A stretch of DNA of 58,177 nt from a virus. Under the pieces are notes generated by a model. The model searched no databases, had not been told where the DNA came from, and saw nothing but the letters and a program-made list of their open reading frames with translations. The translations under genes were made by a program, and so were the position numbers. Below are positions 23,610 to 52,281 of this stretch, one piece after another (positions within the stretch are counted from its first letter, which is position 1; each line of letters starts with the position of its first letter). The stretch lies in the IMG/VR virus record IMGVR_UViG_3300033987_000092, positions 1 to 58,177 of that record, one strand, 5' to 3'.

Positions 23610-23635
23610 AATACCATTATATAAGAAATGGTATT
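23610..23635. promoter_or_regulatory. inverted repeat upstream of the late-regulator candidate
   Basis: AATACCAT at 23610-23617 and ATGGTATT at 23628-23635 form a perfect 8-bp inverted repeat with a 10-base AT-rich spacer, 35 bases before the start at 23670. It may be an operator or RNA hairpin. No clear promoter boxes accompany it. Confidence 0.4.
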
Positions 23636-23669
23636 TATTATCAATACAATACAAGGAGGGGCGCAAGCT

Positions 23670-24227
23670 ATGGGAAAAAGCACATTGGCACAAGCTGAAA
23701 TCATTAAATTGGCAGCTGAAGCAGGAGCCAAGGCCGCACTTGAAGCCTTGGAAAAGGAGAAAAAGAAGGCCCATAAGTCCCGGCATGACCGAAGACTTAG
23801 AAACACGAAGCTATTACTGAGGAATTTCCGCATGTTTAAAGAGCATACCGAAAATGCAGTATTTGAAGTTTCTCAGTTGGATGAGAATGCGATAGATATA
23901 CTTGATATGATGTGGGAATACTCAAACGACAGTGAATTGTTCGTTGAAAGTATCAAAAAGAGTGTAGCCAGGACTAAAATTATCATGACCCATGTAATAG
24001 ACATGCTTGCATTGTATGAGGCCTATTGCATGAAATCTACTAAACCAGAGGACAGCAGGCGTTATCGGGTTATAAATAAACTCTACATATCGGAGCAGCC
24101 TATGACAGTAAGGGAAATTGCAACTATGGAGGGGATAGATGAACGGACAGTCTACAAGGATGTAGATGCAGCATGTGAGAGGTTATCGGCACTTATATTT
24201 GGCATTGACGGATTGAAGAAAGATTGA
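23670..24227 (+). CDS. phage transcription regulator, late-gene activator candidate (ArpU/sigma-like)
   Basis: A 185-aa protein with a helical, basic N-terminus (residues 1-60) and a C-terminal helix-turn-helix (YRVINKLYISEQPMTVREIATMEGIDERTVYKDVDAACERL). This is the build of ArpU-like and sigma-factor-like late regulators of Firmicute phages. It lies directly in front of the promoter-terminator leader at 24251-24350 and the whole late operon, the usual place for such a regulator. The start at 23670 has AAGGAGGGG. The frame extends upstream, but without a ribosome site. Confidence 0.78.
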   Translation: MGKSTLAQAEIIKLAAEAGAKAALEALEKEKKKAHKSRHDRRLRNTKLLLRNFRMFKEHTENAVFEVSQLDENAIDILDMMWEYSNDSELFVESIKKSVARTKIIMTHVIDMLALYEAYCMKSTKPEDSRRYRVINKLYISEQPMTVREIATMEGIDERTVYKDVDAACERLSALIFGIDGLKKD

Positions 24228-24250: not shown

Positions 24251-24280
24251 TTGACTGGGCAGTTTATCATATGCTACGAT
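24251..24280 (+). promoter_or_regulatory. putative late promoter
   Basis: TTGACT at 24251-24256 and TACGAT at 24275-24280 with an 18-base spacer. The -35 is good and the -10 is weak, as expected for a promoter that needs the activator encoded just upstream. No other comparable promoter is seen before the terminase and structural genes. Confidence 0.6.
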
Positions 24281-24314: not shown

Positions 24315-24350
24315 AAACCGTCATTCAAGGAAGAGTGGCGGTTTTTTTAT
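24315..24350 (+). terminator. intrinsic terminator in the late leader
   Basis: AAACCGTCA (24315-24323) pairs with TGGCGGTTT (24336-24344), including one G-U pair, and is followed by a run of T to 24348. It lies only about 35 bases downstream of the putative late promoter's start region and before the late genes, so full-length late RNA must read through it. Confidence 0.8.
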
Positions 24351-24363
24351 TGGAGATGATTCT

Positions 24364-24534
24364 ATGAAGGAGGGAAATTGCAAAAAGTGCGTTTGGAAAA
24401 CAACGCCCGGTGGAAACATTGTGGTCTGCTCCTTTCCTCAATGTTTTTACCGCTCCGAAAACAAAGCTAAATCGCCAATTAGCAGAGTTTCCGGGGATAA
24501 TCGGGGAGAAAACCCAAAGAAAAAGGAGGATTGA
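24364..24534 (+). CDS. small cysteine-rich protein
   Basis: A 56-aa protein beginning MKEGNCKKCVWKT and continuing VVCSFPQCFY, that is, a C-x2-C ... C-x4-C group able to bind zinc. The basic C-terminal tail is low in complexity. A TTGGAGATG site precedes the ATG. It lies between the leader terminator and the symporter gene. Small 'CKKCVW' proteins are typical of clostridial phage late leaders. Role unknown. Confidence 0.65.
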   Translation: MKEGNCKKCVWKTTPGGNIVVCSFPQCFYRSENKAKSPISRVSGDNRGENPKKKED

Positions 24535-24538
24535 AAAA

Positions 24539-25918
24539 ATGTATGGGATGATCGTACTACTTGCCTATTTTCTATTGATGATAGGCGCAACAGTAATTTT
24601 GACAAAAAGAGAGTGCAGCATTGAAGGGTTTTATGTCGGCAACAGGAACATGGGAACTGTAAGCTCCGCAATGAGTATAGCAGCAACATGGATATGGGCG
24701 CCGGCATTATTTGTGTCGGCAGAGAAAGCATATGTGAACGGGATACCGGGACTATTTTGGTTTTTAATACCTAATATAGCCTGCTTATTAATATTTATCC
24801 CGTTCGCAAAGAAAATCCGGAAGGTGATGCCAAGAGGAATTACCTTATCCGGATTTATGGAGGAGAGATACAACTCCACAAAAGTAAAGAAAGTCTATTT
24901 GTTTCAGCTTGCAAGCTTAACAATACTGTCTACAGGTGTACAGCTGCTTGCAGGTGGAAAAATCCTGAGCAATATTACAAACCTACCATTCAGTATAATT
25001 ACCATCATACTGGCTGTAATAGCTTATTCATACTCGCAGTTTTCCGGTATAAAGGCTTCAGTAATAACGGATGCGATTCAAATGGTTCTTATACTGGCAG
25101 CATGTCTGATATTTGTACCTTGGGCAATCAATATGGATGATGGAATAACTCATCTGATAAAAGGATTGTCCGGAGTATCGGGACAGTATACAGGATTATT
25201 CAACGCCAAAGGTATTGAGATATTCTTTGGTTTTGGCTTGCCTACTGCAATAGGTTTGATAGCTGGACCATTCGGGGACCAATGCTTTTGGCAAAGGGCT
25301 TTTTCGATTAAAGAAAGCAAAATCGGGAAGGCGTTTTTTATAGGCACATTATTATTTGCAGTTGTTCCACTTTCTATGGGAATACTCGGTTTTATTGCGG
25401 CCGGCTCAGGATTTATTGCAGCTGACAAAGGGGTAGTCAACTTCGAATTGATTACACATCTGTTCCCTGAATGGGTTATGCTGCCGTTCCTGTTCATGGT
25501 TATATCCGGGTTAATTTCTACTGTAGACAGCAACCTTTGCGCTGCAGCTTCCCTTACAACAGACTTTGTTAAAGATGAGAGCCTAAAAGTTTCAAAAGGT
25601 GCTATGATACTGCTACTTGCCTTTGGTATAGGTATAGCAAATATCCCAGGATTAAGCATTACTCATCTATTTCTGATTTACGGGACTGTAAGAGCATCTA
25701 CGCTTTTACCGACTGTAATGACACTGAAAAACATTAAACTTTCAGCAAAAGGAGTTTATACAGGAGTAATAACTGCATTGCTTCTGGGGCTTCCTGTGTT
25801 TGCCTACGGCACTATTTATAACCTGTCACTATATAAAACCATTGGGAGTTTAACAACGGTGCTGACAGCGGGAATAATTGCCATCTTGATGGCTAAACGG
25901 GAGGTGTACAAAGCATGA
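24539..25918 (+). CDS. sodium:solute symporter (SSS family)
   Basis: A 459-aa membrane protein with about 12-13 hydrophobic helices. It has the SSS-family features GFYVGNRNMGTVSSAMSIAATWIWAPAL (helix 1-2 region), FSGIKASVITDAIQMVLI and GLISTVDSNLCAAASLTTDF. It is not a phage structural protein. It starts at 24539 after AAAGGAGG and overlaps the PAPS-reductase-like gene by 4 bases, so it belongs to the same cassette. The family imports small organic solutes with sodium. The substrate cannot be read from the sequence. Confidence 0.88.
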   Translation: MYGMIVLLAYFLLMIGATVILTKRECSIEGFYVGNRNMGTVSSAMSIAATWIWAPALFVSAEKAYVNGIPGLFWFLIPNIACLLIFIPFAKKIRKVMPRGITLSGFMEERYNSTKVKKVYLFQLASLTILSTGVQLLAGGKILSNITNLPFSIITIILAVIAYSYSQFSGIKASVITDAIQMVLILAACLIFVPWAINMDDGITHLIKGLSGVSGQYTGLFNAKGIEIFFGFGLPTAIGLIAGPFGDQCFWQRAFSIKESKIGKAFFIGTLLFAVVPLSMGILGFIAAGSGFIAADKGVVNFELITHLFPEWVMLPFLFMVISGLISTVDSNLCAAASLTTDFVKDESLKVSKGAMILLLAFGIGIANIPGLSITHLFLIYGTVRASTLLPTVMTLKNIKLSAKGVYTGVITALLLGLPVFAYGTIYNLSLYKTIGSLTTVLTAGIIAILMAKREVYKA

Positions 25919-26703
25919 AAACGGTTCTTAGCAAAAAACAAAGTATAAGTAATGAAGACTGGATCCAGGCCATGAGTCATATTGAAGAATATGTGACAAA
26001 GGAAGAGCTGGATCTTCTGACAGCCATTACCGTAGATGAAATAAAAAAAACCGTTGCCGGCAAAAAGGCAGCCTATGCATGGAGCGCAGGAAAGGATAGC
26101 TTAGTCCTCGGTCATATATGCGAAAAGGCAGGAATTAAGGATTGCATGCTTGGTATATGTAACCTTGAATATCCTGCTTTTTTAGATTGGATAGAAAAGA
26201 ACAAACCGGATAAGCTTGAAATTATCAACACAGGACAAGATCTGGACTGGTTAGCCAAGCATCAGGATATGTTATTCCCTCAGGACAGCTCAAAGGCCGC
26301 AAGGTGGTTTTCAATCGTGCAGCATGCAGCGCAAAGGAAGTATTACAAAGAGCATGGGCTTGATATACTCATCCTCGGAAGGCGCAGAGCTGACGGAAAT
26401 TATGTGGGCAGAGGCGGTAATATTTACATTGATGGGAAAGGGGTAACCAGGTACAGTCCTTTAGCAAACTGGAAGCATGAGTGCATACTTGCATATATCC
26501 ATTATCACAAATTGCCTGTTCCGCCTATATACAATTGGCCTAACGGTTATAAATGCGGCACTCATCCCTGGCCTGCAAGACAATGGACCAAAGATGTAAT
26601 GCATGGATGGGAAGAGATATACACAATCGATCCAAGTATTGTGGATAAAGCTGCTGAAAAAATTGAGAGTGCCAGAAGATTTAAGGAGGGGATGGGCAAA
26701 TGA
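25915..26703 (+). CDS. PAPS-reductase-like ATP pyrophosphatase, first copy
   Basis: A 262-aa protein with an ATP-binding PP-loop in a variant form, WSAGKDSLVLGH (S57-A-G-K-D-S62, normally SGGKDS), and later ILGRRRADG and RYSPLANWKHECILAYI, the family features for substrate orientation. Such enzymes adenylate a substrate in sulfur transfer or nucleotide modification; PAPS reductase, QueC and DndC share this fold. The reductase's own C-terminal redox cysteine is not obvious. It forms a coupled pair with the ParB-like gene (overlap ATGA). Confidence 0.85.
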   Translation: MKTVLSKKQSISNEDWIQAMSHIEEYVTKEELDLLTAITVDEIKKTVAGKKAAYAWSAGKDSLVLGHICEKAGIKDCMLGICNLEYPAFLDWIEKNKPDKLEIINTGQDLDWLAKHQDMLFPQDSSKAARWFSIVQHAAQRKYYKEHGLDILILGRRRADGNYVGRGGNIYIDGKGVTRYSPLANWKHECILAYIHYHKLPVPPIYNWPNGYKCGTHPWPARQWTKDVMHGWEEIYTIDPSIVDKAAEKIESARRFKEGMGK

Positions 26704-27305
26704 AAATAACAAAGATGAACATTGAGGACCTTCGTACCCCTGAGCGGAATATACGTATTCATACAGAAAAACAGATTGAGGAATTTGTAAGAAGTATTAA
26801 AATGTTTGGACAGATCCGGCCAGTAGTTATTGATGAGAACAATACGATACTGGCGGGAAATGGCTTGGTTATGGCACTGAAAAAGGCAGGACTAAAACAG
26901 GTTGATGTTTACCAGATGGATGGGCTGACAGAGAACCAGAAGAAAAAACTTATGATTGCGGATAATAAAATATTCAGCTTGGGGATTGAAAACCTTGATA
27001 CACTAAATGCTTTTTTAGAAGAGCTCGGAAACGATTTGGATATTCCCGGCTTTGATGAGGAAATCTTAAAATCAATGGTAGCGGAGGCAGAGGAAGTAAC
27101 AGAGAAGCTTTCTCAATACGGTACCCTTGATGAAAAAGAGATTGAAAGCATAAGGAGTAATTCAGCTAAAAAAGAAGCTCTTATTGAAAATGCCGGCAAC
27201 ACGGACAATAATTCTATATCAGATATACAGGAGGATGAGGTAGAAACGGCAGATATAAAAAGGTATGTTATCTGTCCAAAGTGTGGTGAGCAGATTTGGC
27301 TATAA
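26700..27305 (+). CDS. ParB-like protein, first copy
   Basis: A 201-aa protein with an N-terminal ParB/Srx-fold domain (MNIEDLRTPERNIRIHTEKQIEEFVRSIKMFGQIRPVVID, then ILAGNGLVMALKKAGL), a helical middle and a C-terminal zinc half-ribbon (CPKCGEQIWL). The ParB fold binds nucleotides (CTP in ParB; kinase-like in others). It is coupled with the PAPS-reductase-like gene before it and overlaps the second such gene. Pairs of this type (IbrA/IbrB-like) are known from phages, with unclear function. Confidence 0.83.
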   Translation: MKITKMNIEDLRTPERNIRIHTEKQIEEFVRSIKMFGQIRPVVIDENNTILAGNGLVMALKKAGLKQVDVYQMDGLTENQKKKLMIADNKIFSLGIENLDTLNAFLEELGNDLDIPGFDEEILKSMVAEAEEVTEKLSQYGTLDEKEIESIRSNSAKKEALIENAGNTDNNSISDIQEDEVETADIKRYVICPKCGEQIWL

Positions 27306-28450
27306 AAAGATGTGAAGCCAGCATTAACGTAGTAAAGGCAGCCGAAATCCGGATTAAAAATGTATTCGGAAATGGGCTGCCTGTTTATATGTCATTCTCC
27401 GGAGGGAAAGACAGCCTGTGCATGGGACAACTGGTGCTTAACCTGATCCAGCAGGGGCAGATAGATCCAAAGCAGCTGACCGTACAGTATATAGATGAGG
27501 AAGCTATATTCCCCTGCATTGAAAAAACAGTGATGAACTGGAGAAAGAAGTTTATGCTCGTGGGAGCCAAGTTTGAATGGTTCTGCTTAGAGGTAAAACA
27601 TTTCAACTGCTTTAATGAACTGTCCAATGATGAAACCTTTATATGCTGGGATAGTGAAAAGCAGGATGTATGGGTAAGGCAGCCACCTTCTTTTGCCATT
27701 AGAAGCCACCCGCTATTATTCCCCAGAAAAGACGCATACCAAGACTTCCTGCCGCGTGTATGCTCTGATGGCATTACAATAACCGGTATCAGGACAGCAG
27801 AATCAGTGCAAAGACTTCAAAACATTGCATCCATGACAAAAGCGGGCAGAAACATTACAAACAAGAAGCAGATATTCCCGATTTATGACTGGACCAATAA
27901 TGATGTGTGGCTATACCTTAAAGAGCAGCAGGTAGATATCCCGGACATTTACCTTTACCTATGGCAATCAGGAACACCGAAAGGACAATTACGGGTATCA
28001 CAGTTCTTTTCTGTAGATACTGCAAAAAGCCTGGTTAAGATGAATGAGTATTACCCGGACCTCATGGAAAGGGTTATACGCCGGGAGCCGAATGCATACC
28101 TTGCAGCTTTATATTGGGATAGTGAAATGTTTGGCCGGAGAACAAAAAAGAGGAAGCAGCTGGAGAAGGATGAGAAAACCAGGGATTATAAAGCAGAGCT
28201 TCTTAAGCTTTTTGGCAACATGGAAGAGTATTTTACCACAAAGCACAAACTGTATGTTGCAACCAGGTATCGCAACTTCTTTCTGCAGGTTCACACCATA
28301 GTCAATCAAAATGACTGCCGGGAGATATATGAAGGCTTAATATCAGGGGATCCCAAATTGCGTACATTCAGAGCACTTTATCAGCGTATTTTCGGTAGAT
28401 ACATTACCGAAGCAAAGAAAGCAGAGAAGGGAGGAATGGCTGTTGATTAA
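27296..28450 (+). CDS. PAPS-reductase-like protein, second copy (IbrA/DUF3440-like)
   Basis: A 384-aa protein with a perfect PP-loop FSGGKDSLCMGQ (S35-G-G-K-D-S40), and later GIRTAESVQRL and FPIYDWTNNDVWLYL, the substrate-side patterns of the family. The C-terminal 120 residues form an added helical domain typical of the IbrA group. TTG at 27296 overlaps the preceding gene by 10 bases. It differs enough from the first copy to be a paralogue, not a recent duplication. Substrate unknown. Confidence 0.85.
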   Translation: MAIKRCEASINVVKAAEIRIKNVFGNGLPVYMSFSGGKDSLCMGQLVLNLIQQGQIDPKQLTVQYIDEEAIFPCIEKTVMNWRKKFMLVGAKFEWFCLEVKHFNCFNELSNDETFICWDSEKQDVWVRQPPSFAIRSHPLLFPRKDAYQDFLPRVCSDGITITGIRTAESVQRLQNIASMTKAGRNITNKKQIFPIYDWTNNDVWLYLKEQQVDIPDIYLYLWQSGTPKGQLRVSQFFSVDTAKSLVKMNEYYPDLMERVIRREPNAYLAALYWDSEMFGRRTKKRKQLEKDEKTRDYKAELLKLFGNMEEYFTTKHKLYVATRYRNFFLQVHTIVNQNDCREIYEGLISGDPKLRTFRALYQRIFGRYITEAKKAEKGGMAVD

Positions 28451-28967
28451 CGAAAGATTGTTTTCTCCGCTTAAGACCCTGCAGTGGGTAGATCGGAATA
28501 AAATAAAGCCTAATGATTACAACCCGAACAAGGTATCCAAGGAAAACTTGAAGCTTCTTACCCAGTCTATACTTGTAAACGGATGGACACTGCCGATAGT
28601 GGTAAGGCCTGACATGACAATTATTGACGGATATCATCGGTGGACGGTAGCAGGGGAAGAGCCTCTCCTTTCTGCCCTCGGAGGTAAAGTCCCAATTGTC
28701 ATTGTTGAGCATGAGGATGAGAGCGGCAATATTTACGGTACTGTAACCCATAACAGGGCAAGAGGTACTCACCTGCTGGAGCCTATGAAGGCAATAGTGC
28801 AGCGGTTATTAGCGTCAGGCAAGTCCATTCAGGAAGTAGGGAAGCAGCTCGGCATGAAGCCAGAGGAGATATTCAGGTTATCAAACTTCTCCAAAGAAGA
28901 TTTTTTGCAGATGATGACAAAAAATGTAAAATCCTATAGCAACGCAGAGTTCATCACAAAGATGTAA
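28443..28967 (+). CDS. ParB-like protein, second copy (IbrB-like)
   Basis: A 174-aa protein with the ParB-type domain (WVDRNKIKPNDYNPNKVSKENLKLLTQSILVNGWTLPIVV, then IIDGYHRWTVA) and VTHNRARGTHLLEPM, followed by an HTH (GKSIQEVGKQLGMKPEEIFRL). In IbrB-like proteins the GYHRW motif lies in the nucleotide pocket. It starts with TTG at 28443 inside the end of the IbrA-like gene. It completes the second pair of the cassette, just before terminase. Confidence 0.84.
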   Translation: MINERLFSPLKTLQWVDRNKIKPNDYNPNKVSKENLKLLTQSILVNGWTLPIVVRPDMTIIDGYHRWTVAGEEPLLSALGGKVPIVIVEHEDESGNIYGTVTHNRARGTHLLEPMKAIVQRLLASGKSIQEVGKQLGMKPEEIFRLSNFSKEDFLQMMTKNVKSYSNAEFITKM

Positions 28968-29015: not shown

Positions 29016-29762
29016 GTGCCAAGAGCAAGAAGTCCTAACAGAGAAAAAGCTCGTGAGCTGTGGCTTGCCTCGGGGAAAAAACGCTTGCTCAAGGACATAG
29101 CCTCAGAACTCGGAGTATCAGAAACACAAGTACGGAAATGGAAAAGTCAGGACGGGTGGGAAAAGGTAACGTTACCAAAAGAGGAAGAAAAAAAGAAAAG
29201 TAACGTTACCAAAAGAAAGCGTGGTGGACAACCGGGTAATAAAAACGGTGTCGGCCACGGAGCTCCTAAAGGAAATAAGAACAATTACAAGCATGGCCTG
29301 TATGAAAGAATCTATTGGGATACTCTTGATGAGGAAGAACAACAGATGATACAGGCCATGAATTATGAAGAGGAGAAACTGCTTCAGGAGCAGATAGCTT
29401 TGTTAACAGTCAGGGAGCGCCGATTACTTAAGACTATAGCAGAGTATAAAGAGAAGAAAGGCGGTCTGGCTTTAGAGAGCGTTATCCAGAGAAAGCTTGA
29501 AATTGACGGTAATATCATTCAGGATGATTACCAGACTCAGACCGAAACTACCACCCGTACCATTTCCACATTTGAGGTTATACAAAAACTTGAAGCGGAG
29601 CTGACACGAGTACAGGCCAAGAAGACCAGGTGTATTGAGGCTTTAAATAAGCTGAGGATTGAAAGACAGAGAATAGATGACGAACAAAAGGGTAATGACC
29701 TGGTTAACGACTGGATACACGGCGTAATGGATGGTGATGATTATGAAGAAGAAGAGGAATAA
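29016..29762 (+). CDS. terS: terminase small subunit
   Basis: A 248-aa protein with an N-terminal HTH (REKARELWLASGKKRLLKDIASELGVSETQVRKWKSQDGWEKV), a basic linker (GGQPGNKNGVGHGAPKGNKNNYKHG) and a long coiled coil (100-240) for oligomerisation. This is the PBSX XtmA-like family that recognises the packaging site. GTG at 29016 follows GAGGTGG. Its coding sequence holds two copies of a palindromic element at 29165-29176 and 29200-29210 that may be the packaging site itself. It overlaps the large-subunit gene. Confidence 0.88.
   Translation: MPRARSPNREKARELWLASGKKRLLKDIASELGVSETQVRKWKSQDGWEKVTLPKEEEKKKSNVTKRKRGGQPGNKNGVGHGAPKGNKNNYKHGLYERIYWDTLDEEEQQMIQAMNYEEEKLLQEQIALLTVRERRLLKTIAEYKEKKGGLALESVIQRKLEIDGNIIQDDYQTQTETTTRTISTFEVIQKLEAELTRVQAKKTRCIEALNKLRIERQRIDDEQKGNDLVNDWIHGVMDGDDYEEEEE
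29165..29216. promoter_or_regulatory. candidate packaging (pac) site inside terS: repeated palindrome
   Basis: GGTAACGTTACC (29165-29176) is a 12-bp palindrome. The 17-base string GTAACGTTACCAAAAGA is present at 29166-29182 and again at 29200-29216, 34 bases later. The two copies are read in different codon frames (V-T-L-P-K versus S-N-V-T-K-R), so the repeat is conserved as DNA rather than as protein. Confidence 0.55.
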
Positions 29763-31179
29763 GCCAACATCACGCCGGGAATTCTTCAAGATGCGCATTC
29801 CTGAATACCGCAAAGACATTGAGTTGTTTGCAAAAGAGGTTTTGGATTTTACTCCTGATGACTGGCAGAGGGCGGTGTTCAAAGATGTAGTTGAGCATAA
29901 CCGTATAACCGTAAAGTCTGGCCAAGGTGTAGGAAAGACCAGTGCTGAAGCGGTTATTTTATTATGGTTTTTGTGCTGCTTCCCATTTCCAAGAGTAGTA
30001 GCAACTGCACCTACTAAGCAGCAGCTCCATGATGTGCTTTGGTCGGAGGTTGCAAAGTGGCAATCGAAAAGCCCGCTGCTCACTCATATACTCAAATGGA
30101 CCAAGACATATATCTATATGATTGGGTATGAAAAAAGGTGGTTTGCAGTAGCAAGGACAGCAACCAAACCCGAAAACATGCAGGGATTTCATGAAGACAA
30201 TATGCTTTTTATCGTGGATGAGGCCTCCGGTGTTGCTGATCCAATCCTGGAAGCAATACTTGGTACTCTTTCTGGTAAAAATAATAAGCTTCTGATGTGC
30301 GGAAATCCCACTAAAACATCAGGTATTTTTTATGACAGCCATACTGTAGACCGGGCAATATACCGTTGCCATACTGTTTCATCTGCAGACAGTCCAAGGA
30401 CAAATAAAGAGAATATTGAAGCGCTGATCCGCAAGTATGGAGCCGAAAGCAATGTAGTAAGGGTGAGGGTATACGGAGAGTTTCCCCTTCAGGAGGATGA
30501 TGTATATATTCCTCTATCTCTCATCGAAGCCAGTATAATGAGTGAGCCTGAAGAAAAACCTGTAGAATCCATTGACATTGGGTGCGATGTTGCCAGGTTT
30601 GGAGATGACAAGACTGTTATAGGCTTCAAGGTGAATGAAAAGGTTGAGTTTTATAAAAAGCTCAATGGACAGGACACAATGCGGACAGCTGCAGATATTG
30701 TATTACTCGGGCAGATACTAATTGATAAGCATAAGTATAAATACAAGATTCCTATAAAGGTTGATGATGGCGGTGTTGGAGGTGGAGTGGTAGACAGGCT
30801 GAGACAGATAAAACGGAGCAATCCTGCACAGTATTGGTGGATGGAAATAGTTCCGGTCAAATTTGGTGTCAGAATAAAGCACAAATATTTCTATGATTCT
30901 ACTACCTACATGATGAATGTGGTTAAGAGCTTGCTGAGCAAAAAGGATGATGAAGGGAATCCAAAGCCGGTGGAGCTTATATTACCCAACGATAACGATC
31001 TGGTCGGACAGCTGTCATGTCGTAAATACACTATGACAGATAACAGTAAAATCAAGATAGAAAGCAAGGAAGATATGAAAAAACGCGGTTTATCCAGTCC
31101 TGATGAGGCTGACTGCGTTCTTTTATTGTGCTTGCCTGTATCTATGAAAGACCGAAAGAAAGGAGATGATAAGGCTTGA
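29743..31179 (+). CDS. terL: terminase large subunit
   Basis: A 478-aa motor and nuclease. The ATPase has Walker A SGQGVGKTSAEA and Walker B MLFIVDEASG, followed by coupling motif C (LLMCGNPTKT). The RNase-H-like nuclease begins with GCDVARFGDDKT and has the later acidic residues (KVDDGGVGGGV..., SSPDEADCVLL). It cuts and pumps phage DNA into the prohead through the portal. The start at 29743 lies inside the end of terS. ATG at 29731 is an alternative. Confidence 0.94.
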   Translation: MKKKRNKPTSRREFFKMRIPEYRKDIELFAKEVLDFTPDDWQRAVFKDVVEHNRITVKSGQGVGKTSAEAVILLWFLCCFPFPRVVATAPTKQQLHDVLWSEVAKWQSKSPLLTHILKWTKTYIYMIGYEKRWFAVARTATKPENMQGFHEDNMLFIVDEASGVADPILEAILGTLSGKNNKLLMCGNPTKTSGIFYDSHTVDRAIYRCHTVSSADSPRTNKENIEALIRKYGAESNVVRVRVYGEFPLQEDDVYIPLSLIEASIMSEPEEKPVESIDIGCDVARFGDDKTVIGFKVNEKVEFYKKLNGQDTMRTAADIVLLGQILIDKHKYKYKIPIKVDDGGVGGGVVDRLRQIKRSNPAQYWWMEIVPVKFGVRIKHKYFYDSTTYMMNVVKSLLSKKDDEGNPKPVELILPNDNDLVGQLSCRKYTMTDNSKIKIESKEDMKKRGLSSPDEADCVLLLCLPVSMKDRKKGDDKA

Positions 31180-48962: not shown

Positions 48963-49294
48963 TAGTCATTGAAAAGAATGTAGGACCAAAGATTGATTAC
49001 ACCGTTACAGGTACAAAAATCAACTTTGCTGGTGAAATCACATTGGATTTGAGCAAGTATGAGCGTGATTTTGCAGTGCATCTTGACATATGCCAGGATA
49101 AGTTTGGCTTTTTTACTATGGGGCTTTCAGACAGATATGTTGCTCAGATAGATATTCCGGAAAGGCAGTACAATATGGAGGAAAATGGAACTGATGAAGA
49201 GGGAAATCCAGTTATGCAGCCTGTTCCGATTCCTTTTAACATGGATAATGTAACGCTCACACTTTGGAGAATGGAGGGGTTGAATAATGCCTAA
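48959..49294 (+). CDS. tail protein upstream of the DGR target
   Basis: A 111-aa protein, beta-rich at the start (VGPKIDYTVTGTKINFAGEITLDLSKYERDFAVHLDI), with a segment RYVAQIDIPERQYNMEEN. It overlaps the target gene by 8 bases, so the two are translated together. It may be the adapter between the baseplate and the variable protein. No family recognised with confidence. Confidence 0.7.
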   Translation: MIVIEKNVGPKIDYTVTGTKINFAGEITLDLSKYERDFAVHLDICQDKFGFFTMGLSDRYVAQIDIPERQYNMEENGTDEEGNPVMQPVPIPFNMDNVTLTLWRMEGLNNA

Positions 49295-50390
49295 TTTTGA
49301 TGATTTGAAACTTACTGTTGAGGCTCTTTCAGGCGGCAAAAATACTGTGCTGCTTGATGACCTTGGGATGCCTTCTATCATGGTGAAAATCCCTAAATTT
49401 AAAATATCTGATGTTATCACAGGCGGACCTGATACAACGCATCCTGCCTTTATTGTTAATGGAGTTGAAAAAGATGCAATATACATTAGCAAATATCAGA
49501 ATATAGTTATGAATGGCAGAGCCTACAGTCTCCCTCATAAAGACCCTGCAGTCTATACGAACTTTGATCAGGCTAAATCTTATTGTGAGGCAAAAGGCTT
49601 AGGGTGGCATCTTATGACCAATGCAGAATGGGCAGCTATCGCTTTGTGGTGTAAGAAGAATGGATTCATGCCTCGTGGGAATAACAACTATGGCGCAGAT
49701 ACATCTGCTGCTCATGAAAAGGGTGTAATGACATGGATGTATGATGCAACGAGGATAGGGCGTGTTGCAACTGGTTCCGGACCTGCGTCATGGGCGCACG
49801 ACAATACCAATGACGGGATATTTGATATGAACGGCAATGTGTGGGAATGGGTTGGAGGATTGAGATTGAAAAACGGAGAAATCCAAATCATTCCGAATAA
49901 TGATGCAGCTCAGGCTATTAACCAGAGCGACACAAGTACTTACTGGAAAGCAATGCTTCAGGATGGTAGTCTTGTCGATCTAGGTACGGCAAACACACTC
50001 AAAATAGATAATACTACAGCCGGAAGTTCTGCTCAGGATGGTAACGATGTTGGTGGAGATCCTATACTGAATACAACAAGAGATAATCCGATGTATACCG
50101 GCGGTGATGTTAATGATAATTACAGGTATAGCGCTTGTAGCTTTGAAACGTTTGCAGCAAAATCAGGGGTAACCGCTCCTACATTGTTAAAGGCTTTGGG
50201 GCTTTTCCCTATTGATGCAAGCCATGGTGGAGATGTTTTATATGTTAGAAACTATGGAGAGAGACTCCCGCTGCGCGGCGGCAATTTCGCTGATGGTGGT
50301 TCCGCCGGGGTTTTCGCCCTCTTTTTGATCAATGATCGTACTTCTAGCGACAACTCTGTCGGGTTCCGCTCCGCTTTTGTAAATCTGTAA
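49287..50390 (+). CDS. DGR target protein: tail receptor-binding protein with C-type lectin fold
   Basis: A 367-aa protein. The N-terminal ~45 residues link it to the tail. The remainder is a formylglycine-generating-enzyme-like C-type lectin fold (YCEAKGLGWHLMTNAEWAAIALWCKKNG, DGIFDMNGNVWEWVGGLRL). The end (from L329: LRGGNFADGGSAGVFAL...VGFRSAF) is encoded by the variable repeat at 50269-50375. Eight residues differ from those specified by the template (335, 336, 346, 348, 350, 353, 355, 357), and all changes come from adenines. It is the most likely receptor-binding element of the virion. It overlaps the previous gene. Confidence 0.93.
   Translation: MPNFDDLKLTVEALSGGKNTVLLDDLGMPSIMVKIPKFKISDVITGGPDTTHPAFIVNGVEKDAIYISKYQNIVMNGRAYSLPHKDPAVYTNFDQAKSYCEAKGLGWHLMTNAEWAAIALWCKKNGFMPRGNNNYGADTSAAHEKGVMTWMYDATRIGRVATGSGPASWAHDNTNDGIFDMNGNVWEWVGGLRLKNGEIQIIPNNDAAQAINQSDTSTYWKAMLQDGSLVDLGTANTLKIDNTTAGSSAQDGNDVGGDPILNTTRDNPMYTGGDVNDNYRYSACSFETFAAKSGVTAPTLLKALGLFPIDASHGGDVLYVRNYGERLPLRGGNFADGGSAGVFALFLINDRTSSDNSVGFRSAFVNL
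50269..50375 (+). repeat. DGR variable repeat (VR)
   Basis: A 107-bp segment at the 3' end of the target gene that aligns without gaps to 50896-51002. There are 12 differences, all at adenines of the template (A to T 7, A to G 3, A to C 2). The last 18 bases (GTCGGGTTCCGCTCCGCT) are identical in both and GC-rich, the expected place of the IMH element where mutagenic homing starts. The stop codon follows at 50388-50390. Confidence 0.95.
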
Positions 50391-50409
50391 TCTGGTGCAC
50401 TGTAATCTG

Positions 50410-50435
50410 TTTCTCCCGCCGATAGGCGGGAGAAA
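50410..50435. promoter_or_regulatory. DGR target-site hairpin (cruciform) downstream of VR
   Basis: TTTCTCCCGCC (50410-50420) and GGCGGGAGAAA (50425-50435) form a perfect 11-bp inverted repeat with the 4-base loop GATA. Target-site hairpins of DGRs have this form, with a 4-base loop of the GRNA type, and raise homing efficiency. The 10-base string CTGTAATCTG is also repeated at 50385-50394 and 50400-50409, between VR and the hairpin. The trailing AAATTTTT run means it might also act as a terminator. Confidence 0.7.
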
Positions 50436-50531
50436 AATTTTTAAATCTAAAATAACGCATTGGGTTATAATTTAACAATTATCCAAAAATGAAATATTTC
50501 CTGCTAAAATTTATGAGATGGGGGGAGATGC

Positions 50532-50870
50532 GTGGGTGAAGAATTAAAAATACTTCAAAAAGTATACGATATGATAAAGTATGGATATCAAGCTCTTGCA
50601 CAATTTCCCAAAAGTGAAAAGTTTGCATTAGCAGCAGATATAAAAAGATGCATGCATTTGATCCTTGAAAGGGTTATTGAAGCGAATAAAAAATACTATA
50701 AAAAAACAACTCTTCAGGAATTAGATGTAGAAATTATGAAACTCAAAGCATATCTGCGGTTATCTCAGGAGTTAGGTTTTTTGCCATTTAAAAAGTATGA
50801 GATATGGTCAGAAAAAGTAGTAGAGATAGGTAAGATGCTTGGAGGATGGATTAAGTCAACAAATAAATAA
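50532..50870 (+). CDS. avd: DGR accessory variability determinant (Avd)
   Basis: A 112-aa, highly basic, all-helical protein with the Avd pattern: LQKVYDMIKYGYQALAQFPKSEKFALAADIKRCMHLILERVIEANKKYY, then LQELDVEIMKLKAYLRLSQELGFLPFKKYEIWSEKVVEIGKMLGGW. Avd forms a five-fold barrel of four-helix bundles that binds the reverse transcriptase and the template RNA and is needed for homing. GTG at 50532 follows GGGGGAG. Its position between VR and TR fits known DGR orders. Confidence 0.93.
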   Translation: MGEELKILQKVYDMIKYGYQALAQFPKSEKFALAADIKRCMHLILERVIEANKKYYKKTTLQELDVEIMKLKAYLRLSQELGFLPFKKYEIWSEKVVEIGKMLGGWIKSTNK

Positions 50871-50895
50871 TAAAATATTGGGAACAGGATGTCAG

Positions 50896-51002
50896 CGCTG
50901 CGCGGCGGCAATTTCACTAATGGTGGTTCCGCCGGGGTTTTCGCCCTCAATTTGAACAATGAACGAACTAATAGCAACAACAATGTCGGGTTCCGCTCCG
51001 CT
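50896..51002 (+). repeat. DGR template repeat (TR)
   Basis: The 107-bp invariant template, with 24 adenines, 12 of which are changed in VR. Nearly all lie in AAT/AAC codons (N in the template frame), which allow many replacements but never a TAA/TAG/TGA-type stop from AAC or AAT. It lies in the 298-base gap between avd and the reverse transcriptase gene. An open frame at 50889-51107 is a by-product of its similarity to the target gene, not a gene. Confidence 0.95.
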
Positions 51003-51168
51003 CTACTCTCGCAGTCAGATGTAGTATACTCATGGGTATACTTCCAGTACGGAGAGATTAAAGGATCCTGTTTCCATGCCGAAAGGCAAAAAACTGAAAT
51101 GTTATGAATGCCGAAAGTAGCCATAGTGCAAAATCCGCAACGCATAACATTTTTTTACGGGAGGAAAT
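51003..51168 (+). ncRNA. 3' part of the DGR template RNA (spacer region)
   Basis: The 166 bases between TR and the reverse transcriptase start are the position of the structured spacer that, with Avd and RT, primes cDNA synthesis. Visible structure includes GTATAC-TCATGG-GTATAC, a GCC-GAAA-GGC tetraloop stem, and ATGTTATG (51099-51106) pairing with CATAACAT (51143-51150), followed by a run of seven T. The boundaries of the RNA are not determined. Confidence 0.6.
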
Positions 51169-52281
51169 ATGAAATACATAAAGAATCTCTACGATGATAT
51201 ATGTACCTTTGAAAACCTATATTTAGCATATAAAAACGCAAGAAAAAATAAGAGGTTTAGGGATGAAGTACTGGAATTTTCATCAAATGTGGAAGAATAT
51301 TTAATGGATATACGCAAAGAACTTATCGAACAGACTTATAAAGTTGGTAAATACCGAGAATTCTTTGTATATGAGCCTAAAAAAAGGCTGATAATGGCTT
51401 TGCCTTTTAAAGACCGGGTTGTTCAATGGGCAATATATCAAAAACTTAATCCATACTTTACAAAAGGTTATATATCTGACAGTTTTGCTTGTATAGAAGG
51501 CAGAGGAGCTCATCAAGCTGTCCAAAGATTGCATTACTGGCTAAGGCAGATAGGTAGAAAACCAGGTAAATATTATTATCTAAAGCTTGATATTTCAAAA
51601 TATTATTACAGAATTGACCATGACGTTTTAGTAGAAATTCTCTCAAGAAAGATAAAAGACACCAAATTGATGAAGCTTCTTGAGGGAATTATCCGGTGTG
51701 AAGATCATAGCTTTGGCCTCCCTCTCGATGCAAGCCTTGAGGAAACAGATGTTAGGATAAACAATAAAGGAATGCCTATCGGTAACTTAACCTCACAGAT
51801 GTTTGCCAATATCTATTTAAATGAACTGGACCAGTATGTAAAAAGAAAACTCAGGATTCATTATTATGTTCGATACATGGATGATGTAATTATTCTGCAT
51901 GAGAGCAAACAGGAACTACACAAAATAAAGAAAGTGATTGAGACTTTCCTTGATGAGAAGCTGAAGCTTAATCTCAACAACAAAACTGCCATAAGACCGG
52001 TTACCCTGGGGATTGAATTCGTCGGATACAAGGTATGGAATACCCATATAAAGCTGCGAAAAAGCACAGCTCTTAAGATGAAACGAAGGTTAAAACATCT
52101 TAAGAAACAGTATGAACGGGGAGAAATTGAGATTGAGGATGTAAGAGCAACAATGGCAAGTTATAATGGACTGATGAAGCATTGCAATAGCTTCAGGCTC
52201 CGAAGTAAACTGTATGACACATTGGTTTTTACAAGAAAAAGTGAACCAGATAATGATGATGAGAATGGTGGATGTGAATAA
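51169..52281 (+). CDS. DGR reverse transcriptase
   Basis: A 370-aa reverse transcriptase of the DGR group. The catalytic centre is YMDD at residues 236-239 (YYVRYMDDVIIL). Motif 4 reads IGNLTSQ (204-210), where the SQ ending separates DGR enzymes from group II intron and retron ones. Other blocks: FKDRVVQWAIYQKLNPYF, YYLKLDISKYYYRID, LNNKTAIRPVTLGIEFVGYK. There is no nuclease or maturase domain. GGGAGGAAAT precedes the ATG. With Avd it makes adenine-mutagenised cDNA from the TR RNA. Confidence 0.96.
   Translation: MKYIKNLYDDICTFENLYLAYKNARKNKRFRDEVLEFSSNVEEYLMDIRKELIEQTYKVGKYREFFVYEPKKRLIMALPFKDRVVQWAIYQKLNPYFTKGYISDSFACIEGRGAHQAVQRLHYWLRQIGRKPGKYYYLKLDISKYYYRIDHDVLVEILSRKIKDTKLMKLLEGIIRCEDHSFGLPLDASLEETDVRINNKGMPIGNLTSQMFANIYLNELDQYVKRKLRIHYYVRYMDDVIILHESKQELHKIKKVIETFLDEKLKLNLNNKTAIRPVTLGIEFVGYKVWNTHIKLRKSTALKMKRRLKHLKKQYERGEIEIEDVRATMASYNGLMKHCNSFRLRSKLYDTLVFTRKSEPDNDDENGGCE

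Follow-up and report, generated by a model that had tools for sequence, protein, structure and literature searches.

A Transporter-Bearing PP-loop/ParB Gene Cassette Beside the Terminase Genes of Tailed Phages, with a Possible Role in Nucleic-Acid Modification

The Cassette

The window analysed here is a single virus record of 58,177 bases (IMGVR_UViG_3300033987_000092, positions 1 to 58,177) from a temperate tailed phage. On its + strand, at 24539-28967, lies a cassette of five overlapping genes for an SSF-family symporter, two PP-loop ATP pyrophosphatases (PP1 and PP2) and two ParB-like proteins (PB1 and PB2), in the order SSF, PP1, PB1, PP2, PB2. That these genes form one unit, that the unit is conserved among many relatives, and that it stands directly before the packaging genes can be read from the sequence itself. 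The transporter-bearing phage form is a new form of IbrA/IbrB-type pair, the pairs themselves being already known. We tentatively take it to be a set of late phage genes that modifies nucleic acid by nitrogen-type chemistry, the most likely target being phage DNA just before packaging, a reading that we regard as possible and somewhat short of probable.

An initial annotation, made from the letters of the window alone, had placed five genes here with overlaps of 4-10 bases. Open reading frames, Pfam and PHROG matches confirm their place and strand, and the overlaps SSF/PP1, PP1/PB1, PB1/PP2 and PP2/PB2 are 4, 4, 10 and 8 bases, respectively. The genes are:

24539..25918, + strand: first cassette gene, SSF-family symporter, 459 aa (PF00474, E 4e-23; phrog_20720, E 2e-187)
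25915..26703, + strand: PP1, PP-loop ATP pyrophosphatase, 262 aa, accessory (PF01507, PAPS_reduct, E 4e-11)
26700..27305, + strand: PB1, ParB-like protein, 201 aa (phrog_620, ParB, E 3e-51)
27296..28450, + strand: PP2, IbrA-like PP-loop ATP pyrophosphatase, 384 aa, TTG start, core enzyme (PF01507, E 3e-12; phrog_2302, E 4e-94)
28443..28967, + strand: PB2, IbrB-like ParB protein, 174 aa, TTG start (PF02195, E 1e-6; phrog_2159, E 9e-69)

Conservation and Core of the Unit

A symporter-anchored scan returned 85 viral relatives, and a profile scan found 77 loci in cellular genomes, mostly of Lachnospiraceae, Oscillospiraceae and other Clostridia, together with Treponema. Because symporter-anchored searches favour symporter-bearing loci, PP2-anchored scans were added against this bias, and the picture they gave matched. 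Distinct PP2 loci, defined by less than 88% identity and at least 3.2 kb of upstream room, numbered 108, and a transporter, PB1 and PB2 were all present in 107 of them, the exception being phage PJN03. Among PP2 relatives below about 40% identity, the transporter survey covered four annotated phages. Gene models built from the window proteins recur in identical order nearly everywhere, in more than 100 distinct loci and far above chance. Purifying selection acts on all five genes of the window, with ratios of nonsynonymous to synonymous substitution of 0.03-0.17 relative to one of the nearest relatives (L005).

These counts bear out the proposal that the genes are one conserved unit of which a dedicated transporter is part. 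The five-gene neighbourhood does recur in other phages, and a separate, random scatter of its genes was not seen within the clade. The suggestion of a possibly undescribed system also stands, as no description of the transporter-bearing phage gene combination turned up in the literature searched; the closest mention found is a paper on C. clostridioforme prophages, in which PHROG 424 and PHROG 2302 are both listed for prophage 14 under 'host metabolism' (PMC11318856). The doubling of PP-loop/ParB pairs, put forward as the key feature, did not hold up. PP1 is present in 77 of the 107 distinct cassettes and missing from 30, with at least 18 gains or losses on the PP2 tree; it is thus accessory, and the core is transporter-PB1-PP2-PB2 rather than two equal pairs. 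Peptide patterns for PP1 gave no match in genome contigs, which is a limit of that method. In Eubacterium plexicaudatum ASF492, about 3.5 kb interrupts PP1 between its first residues and the remainder (L135).

The Transporter Slot

Among the 107 distinct cassettes the transporter slot is filled either by an SSF symporter (74) or by a protein of about 332 residues (33), and the two are mutually exclusive. The window symporter has a full-length SSF domain (PF00474, 82.5 bits against a cut-off of 22.8), and its nearest solved relatives in a PDB profile search are the DUR3 urea symporter (E 1e-22) and a choline transporter (E 1e-18), with SGLT also matched. The sequence of its invariant S327/T328 region would be compatible with Na+-coupled transport.

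The shorter alternative is a membrane protein of no Pfam family that replaces the symporter in relatives of Faecalibacterium phage FP_Taranis; it is the form carried by FP_Taranis itself and by Faecalibacterium phage Pioen. Profile comparison links it to SSF (hhalign probability 94, E 1.4e-7), and its AlphaFold model (predicted local distance difference test score, pLDDT, 85; predicted template modelling score 0.83) superimposes on the choline transporter CHT1 with a Z score of 26.7 (root-mean-square deviation 3.4 over 306 residues) and on DUR3 with Z 23.6. Judged by this model, it proves to be a minimal SSF relative with a predicted SSF/LeuT (SLC5) fold. Transporter type has switched at least four times on the PP2 tree, a clear case being L208, where a PP2 of the SSF clade is accompanied by the minimal transporter. 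Since the slot is filled in 107 of the 108 distinct loci, and by two fold-related families that have been swapped for one another, a LeuT-fold transporter is an obligatory member of the unit in this clade.

In five loci (L146, L153, L083, L231 and L200) the symporter gene is broken at a single conserved site, codons ~326-332 (CTATCGACGGTTGATAG, within the ISGLLSTVDSN motif), and in L231 a tyrosine integrase adjoins the symporter fragment. It looks as if integrative elements use the phage symporter gene as an integration site.

The PP-loop Proteins

In the alignments of PP1 (41 rows) and PP2 (39 rows), the S, G, K and D of the S-x-G-K-D PP-loop at the first strand are invariant. The second residue varies, being alanine in 68/199 PP1 and 32/279 PP2 sequences, and the SAGKDS form that the initial annotation had singled out is a common variant. 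An AlphaFold model of PP2 (pLDDT 81) has the fold of the adenosine 5'-phosphosulfate (APS)/3'-phosphoadenosine 5'-phosphosulfate (PAPS) reductase superfamily; its nearest folds are APS/PAPS reductases and the PAPS domain of FAD synthase (Z about 12-14), followed at Z about 10 by NadE, TilS, GMP synthetase and LarE. Residues ~250-384 of PP2 are barely covered by structural matches, and no fold is claimed there.

These names and folds would suggest sulfur chemistry, either assimilatory PAPS reduction or Dnd-like phosphorothioation. The Pfam and PHROG labels point that way, the nearest solved fold is an APS reductase, and PP2 gives a weak, partial match to DndC (E 6e-9). However, the catalytic ECGxH motif of CysH is found in 0/202 PP1 and 0/281 PP2 proteins, neither alignment has an invariant cysteine, and CxxC occurs in just 2/202 and 19/281. 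This makes PAPS reduction, thiolation and phosphorothioation unlikely, and both a CysH role and phosphorothioation were rejected on the cysteines. Genes for DndD and DndE are absent from the cassette, and SSF transporters are not known to carry sulfate. Taken together, a sulfur pathway is highly improbable.

PP2 is 26% identical to IbrA of phage PhiR5_2 (E 3e-21), in which IbrA and IbrB are adjacent, and in the cassette PP2 is likewise directly followed by PB2. The IbrA/IbrB kinship originally noted for PP2 and PB2 is thus well founded.

The ParB-like Proteins

PB2 belongs to the ParB N-terminal domain family by Pfam (PF02195 above the cut-off), while PB1 falls below the cut-off in that search (E 2e-4) and is placed there by its PHROG ParB match. 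At its C-terminus PB1 carries a zinc-knuckle-like CxxCG in 273/283 proteins, with C192, C195 and G196 invariant. PB2 has conserved DGFHRW and NRARG motifs and matches a solved ParB/Noc protein (E ~1e-4). It is the slowest-evolving member of the unit, forming 14 clusters at 72% identity compared with 44 for PP2 and 101 for PB1. The overlap between PB1 and PP2 is exactly 10 bases in 239/273 loci.

Hints of Nitrogen Chemistry

Two cassettes carry, between PP1 and PB1, a stand-alone class II glutamine amidotransferase with its Cys2 intact (L092:12173-12766 and L093:12187-12789). Distant SSF relatives in four bacterial genomes (L147, L148, L150 and L155) adjoin an AsnB-like PP-loop enzyme that has no amidotransferase Cys2. 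The amidotransferase and the AsnB-like neighbours are hints of a chemistry based on nitrogen and not on sulfur. A third such hint comes from a Parasutterella prophage (L161), where the SSF gene overlaps the gene of a PP-loop protein with kinship to PP1 as well as to AsnB/QueC. In two further loci a phrog_854 glucosyltransferase-like gene lies between the minimal transporter and PP1 (L258:914-1654 and L266:2154-2930).

The four chromosomal loci show a conserved trio of genes, for a zinc-ribbon protein with a weak Spo11/Toprim match, the AsnB-like enzyme and the SSF symporter; we know of no described system of this composition.

Association with the Packaging Genes

The cassette is followed immediately by the terminase genes:

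29016..29762, + strand: terminase small subunit TerS, next gene (PF10668, E 1e-21)
29731..31179, + strand: terminase large subunit TerL (phrog_2, E 7e-47)

On the PP2 tree the terminase type has changed at least 11 times among three large clusters of downstream TerL, one SPP1-like, one lambda gpA-like and a third; further loci have TerL_ATPase/TerL_nuclease or Terminase_6N/Terminase_3. As the unit stays in place through these changes, its link with packaging outlives the exchange of the packaging genes themselves. L144 is an exception, with the cassette beside tail genes. Mycobacterium phage Gadjet has a distantly related PP-loop/ParB set, without a transporter, that likewise abuts TerL. This position fits an action on DNA shortly before packaging.

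The cassette might instead be a metabolic aid that takes up a nutrient or cofactor and adenylates it, in the way of NadE, FAD synthase and similar enzymes, and so raises the metabolism of the host late in infection. SSF is a family of nutrient transporters, and the PP2 model resembles the PAPS domain of FAD synthase and, less closely, NadE and GMP synthetase. Such pathways have no role for the two ParB-like proteins found in 107/107 distinct transporter-bearing cassettes, nor would they account for a cassette that adjoins terminase across unrelated packaging genes, and we consider this explanation distinctly unlikely.

The Leader and Upstream Regulator

Upstream of the cassette are:

23628..24227, + strand: helix-turn-helix (HTH)-bearing protein (phrog_1558, E 5e-57), just 5' of the late leader
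24251..24280, + strand: sigma-70-like promoter, TTGACT-18-TACGAT, with TG extension; shortly 3' of it is the conserved start motif GTAAAATTC
24315..24344, + strand: strong intrinsic-terminator-like hairpin (fold z -2.97)

This leader layout is real and is conserved in relatives. In a set of 139 distinct leaders from them, the GTAAAAT-like start motif occurs in 106 (compared with 77/1550 control windows, 5%), the terminator-like hairpin in 123 (84/628 control windows, 13%), and a pair of anti-Shine-Dalgarno (anti-SD) and Shine-Dalgarno (SD) sequences near the symporter start in 73 (2% of controls). Rfam gave no match of note for a riboswitch in the leader. A small Cys-rich open reading frame at ~24364-24534, before the symporter, was dropped as a candidate, since outside the window it occurs only in the closest relatives (L004, L005/L084).

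The HTH-bearing phrog_1558 gene lies 5' of the cassette in most loci, and FP_Taranis has a 'RinA-like' gene at that place; from its position the protein is likely a late-operon activator or antiterminator. A promoter and then a terminator just after a regulator gene is a late-operon layout under antitermination, established for lambda Q, and by analogy the cassette leader may be under control of this type. With this leader 5' and TerS/TerL 3', the unit heads the late region directly before the packaging genes, as first proposed.

The main rival to DNA modification is that the cassette is itself a late regulatory unit of IbrA/IbrB-like co-activators, in which a ParB-like protein binds DNA, the PP-loop protein detects or produces a small signal and the symporter provides that signal. 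PP2 and PB2 have homologues in IbrA and IbrB, which are annotated as co-activators of prophage gene expression, and the cassette opens the late operon, after a leader with a terminator. Yet the catalytic PP-loop residues are invariant, and a pure regulator would need no transporter, glutamine amidotransferase or glycosyltransferase; the mechanism of IbrAB could, moreover, itself be DNA modification. We therefore judge a regulatory role unlikely.

Proposed Mechanism

In the modification that we favour, substrate, product and target are inferred as follows. The symporter would import a small nitrogen-bearing solute (an amine, an amide, or a urea- or choline-like compound). PP2, with or without PP1, would use ATP to adenylate a carbonyl, either on a base or on the imported solute, and would then join base and solute with release of AMP, in the manner of TilS, AsnB and GMP synthetase and with no transfer of sulfur. 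PB1 and PB2 may recruit the enzyme to DNA, much as other enzymes that modify DNA have DpdB or DndB as partners. Made by the first genes of the late operon, the product would mark genomes destined for packaging, for instance as protection from restriction. In its most specific form, the model would make the cassette an entirely new kind of phage system, which takes up an amine or amide through its own symporter and, by means of PP-loop enzymes, attaches it covalently to DNA, with a pair of ParB-like proteins as guides and a tie to packaging. This would also answer what the biochemistry of IbrA/IbrB is; so narrow a version is rather doubtful.

Several points weigh against modification of DNA. 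We know of no carrier of the cassette with a known modified nucleoside. The fold of PP2 is closest to APS reductase (Z 14.2), though fold does not show chemistry, and the likeness of the transporter to DUR3 and CHT1 is at the level of the superfamily and does not fix the substrate. Of eight informative distant SSF loci, three (L151, L156 and L159) have no recognisable PP-loop neighbour, and chromosomal IbrA-IbrB pairs without a transporter occur in about 20 of 150 Lachnospiraceae species. The region beside terminase could be a hot spot for insertions into late operons. As far as the account in PMC10434257 goes, citing Sandt et al. 2002, the only role known for IbrA/IbrB of E. coli is to activate the eib genes of prophages.

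A Hairpin in the PP1-PB1 Gap

Of 70 distinct PP1-PB1 gaps of at least 45 nt, 62 (L043, L105 and L013 among them) contain, 5' of PB1, a hairpin with an invariant TTGCAG (UUGCAG) loop. Its stem covaries freely, with pairs 1-4 formed in 60-62 of the 62, and it has no Rfam match. Many loci have an anti-SD/SD pair 3' of the hairpin, for which reason translational control is likely. In L092 and L093 the hairpin lies inside the coding region of the inserted amidotransferase. UUGCAG hairpins inside codons 69 and 137 of SSF were judged a coding coincidence. Although the signal is strong, the hairpin was kept outside the main finding because it is absent from the window, where PP1 and PB1 overlap.

This covarying element, together with the presence of TilS and NcsA among the fold matches of PP2, could be taken to favour modification of RNA, with PP1/PP2 acting on host or phage RNA (tRNA) in a TilS-like manner and using an imported amine. 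No RNA-binding domain was recognised in the cassette, ParB-like proteins are DNA-associated, and the hairpin is also absent from 142 loci without a gap. An RNA target is accordingly improbable.

Comparison with Known Systems

PADLOC gave generic, partial matches only (MTase_II, DndC and BrxP), and a known defence system was set aside as an explanation. The closest relatives are the IbrA/IbrB pairs of phages and chromosomes, which have homologues of PP2 and PB2 in matching order. The pairs examined are without a transporter, whereas the PP2 clade of the cassette almost always has one, and those of PhiR5_2, CHPC1230 and chromosomes have no link with terminase. The chromosomal pairs, with an IbrA of about 443 aa (L321-L338), often stand beside ordinary metabolic genes.

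A parallel is offered by Dpd and phage 7-deazaguanine modification, which combine the PP-loop enzyme QueC with the ParB-like DpdB, which acts in preQ0 insertion (PMC12839542), and sometimes with the preQ0 transporter YhhQ, which phages carry (PMC6884629). However, no tRNA-guanine transglycosylase (TGT)/DpdA or preQ0 pathway protein is among the five, the PP-loop family is another one, and so is the transporter fold. Dnd/Ssp phosphorothioation likewise pairs a related PP-loop domain (DndC) with a ParB-superfamily partner (DndB), but the cassette is without the cysteine pair, DndD and DndE, and has a symporter in addition. PAPS/APS reductase (CysH), the name that databases usually give to such proteins, has the PP-loop domain fold in common with PP1 and PP2; unlike CysH, no cassette member has the catalytic ECGxH cysteine, and ParB partners are present. 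The chromosomal AsnB-like + SSF pairs resemble the cassette in setting a distantly related SSF beside a PP-loop enzyme, although this is of the asparagine-synthetase type, ParB genes are absent, and no phage genes were seen nearby.

Other Features of the Window

An integrase gene lies at 32-1150 of the window. To the left of the cassette are SbcCD-like, replication initiator and sliding-clamp-type genes, and to its right terminase, a diversity-generating retroelement and holin. The retroelement (49287-52281) has a variable repeat at 50269-50375 and a template repeat at 50896-51002, and 12/12 differences between them are at template adenines. Next to the repeats are an RT-14 RNA (51006-51147) and the reverse transcriptase at 51169.

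Significance

Many phages and bacterial genomes contain PP-loop/ParB pairs of the IbrA/IbrB type, for which no biochemistry is known, and the PP-loop proteins of these pairs routinely go under the name of PAPS reductases or of sulfur 'auxiliary metabolic genes'. The cassette carries a warning that cysH-like phage genes should not be read as sulfur metabolism. The obligatory transporter, the second LeuT-fold family, and the amidotransferase and AsnB neighbours provide a concrete chemical hypothesis for such pairs, which existing isolates allow to be tested: Faecalibacterium phages Pioen and FP_Taranis, and the prophages of Anaerotruncus colihominis DSM 17241 and Acetatifactor muris DSM 23669. 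Many viruses of gut bacteria share this compact gene set beside their DNA-packaging genes.

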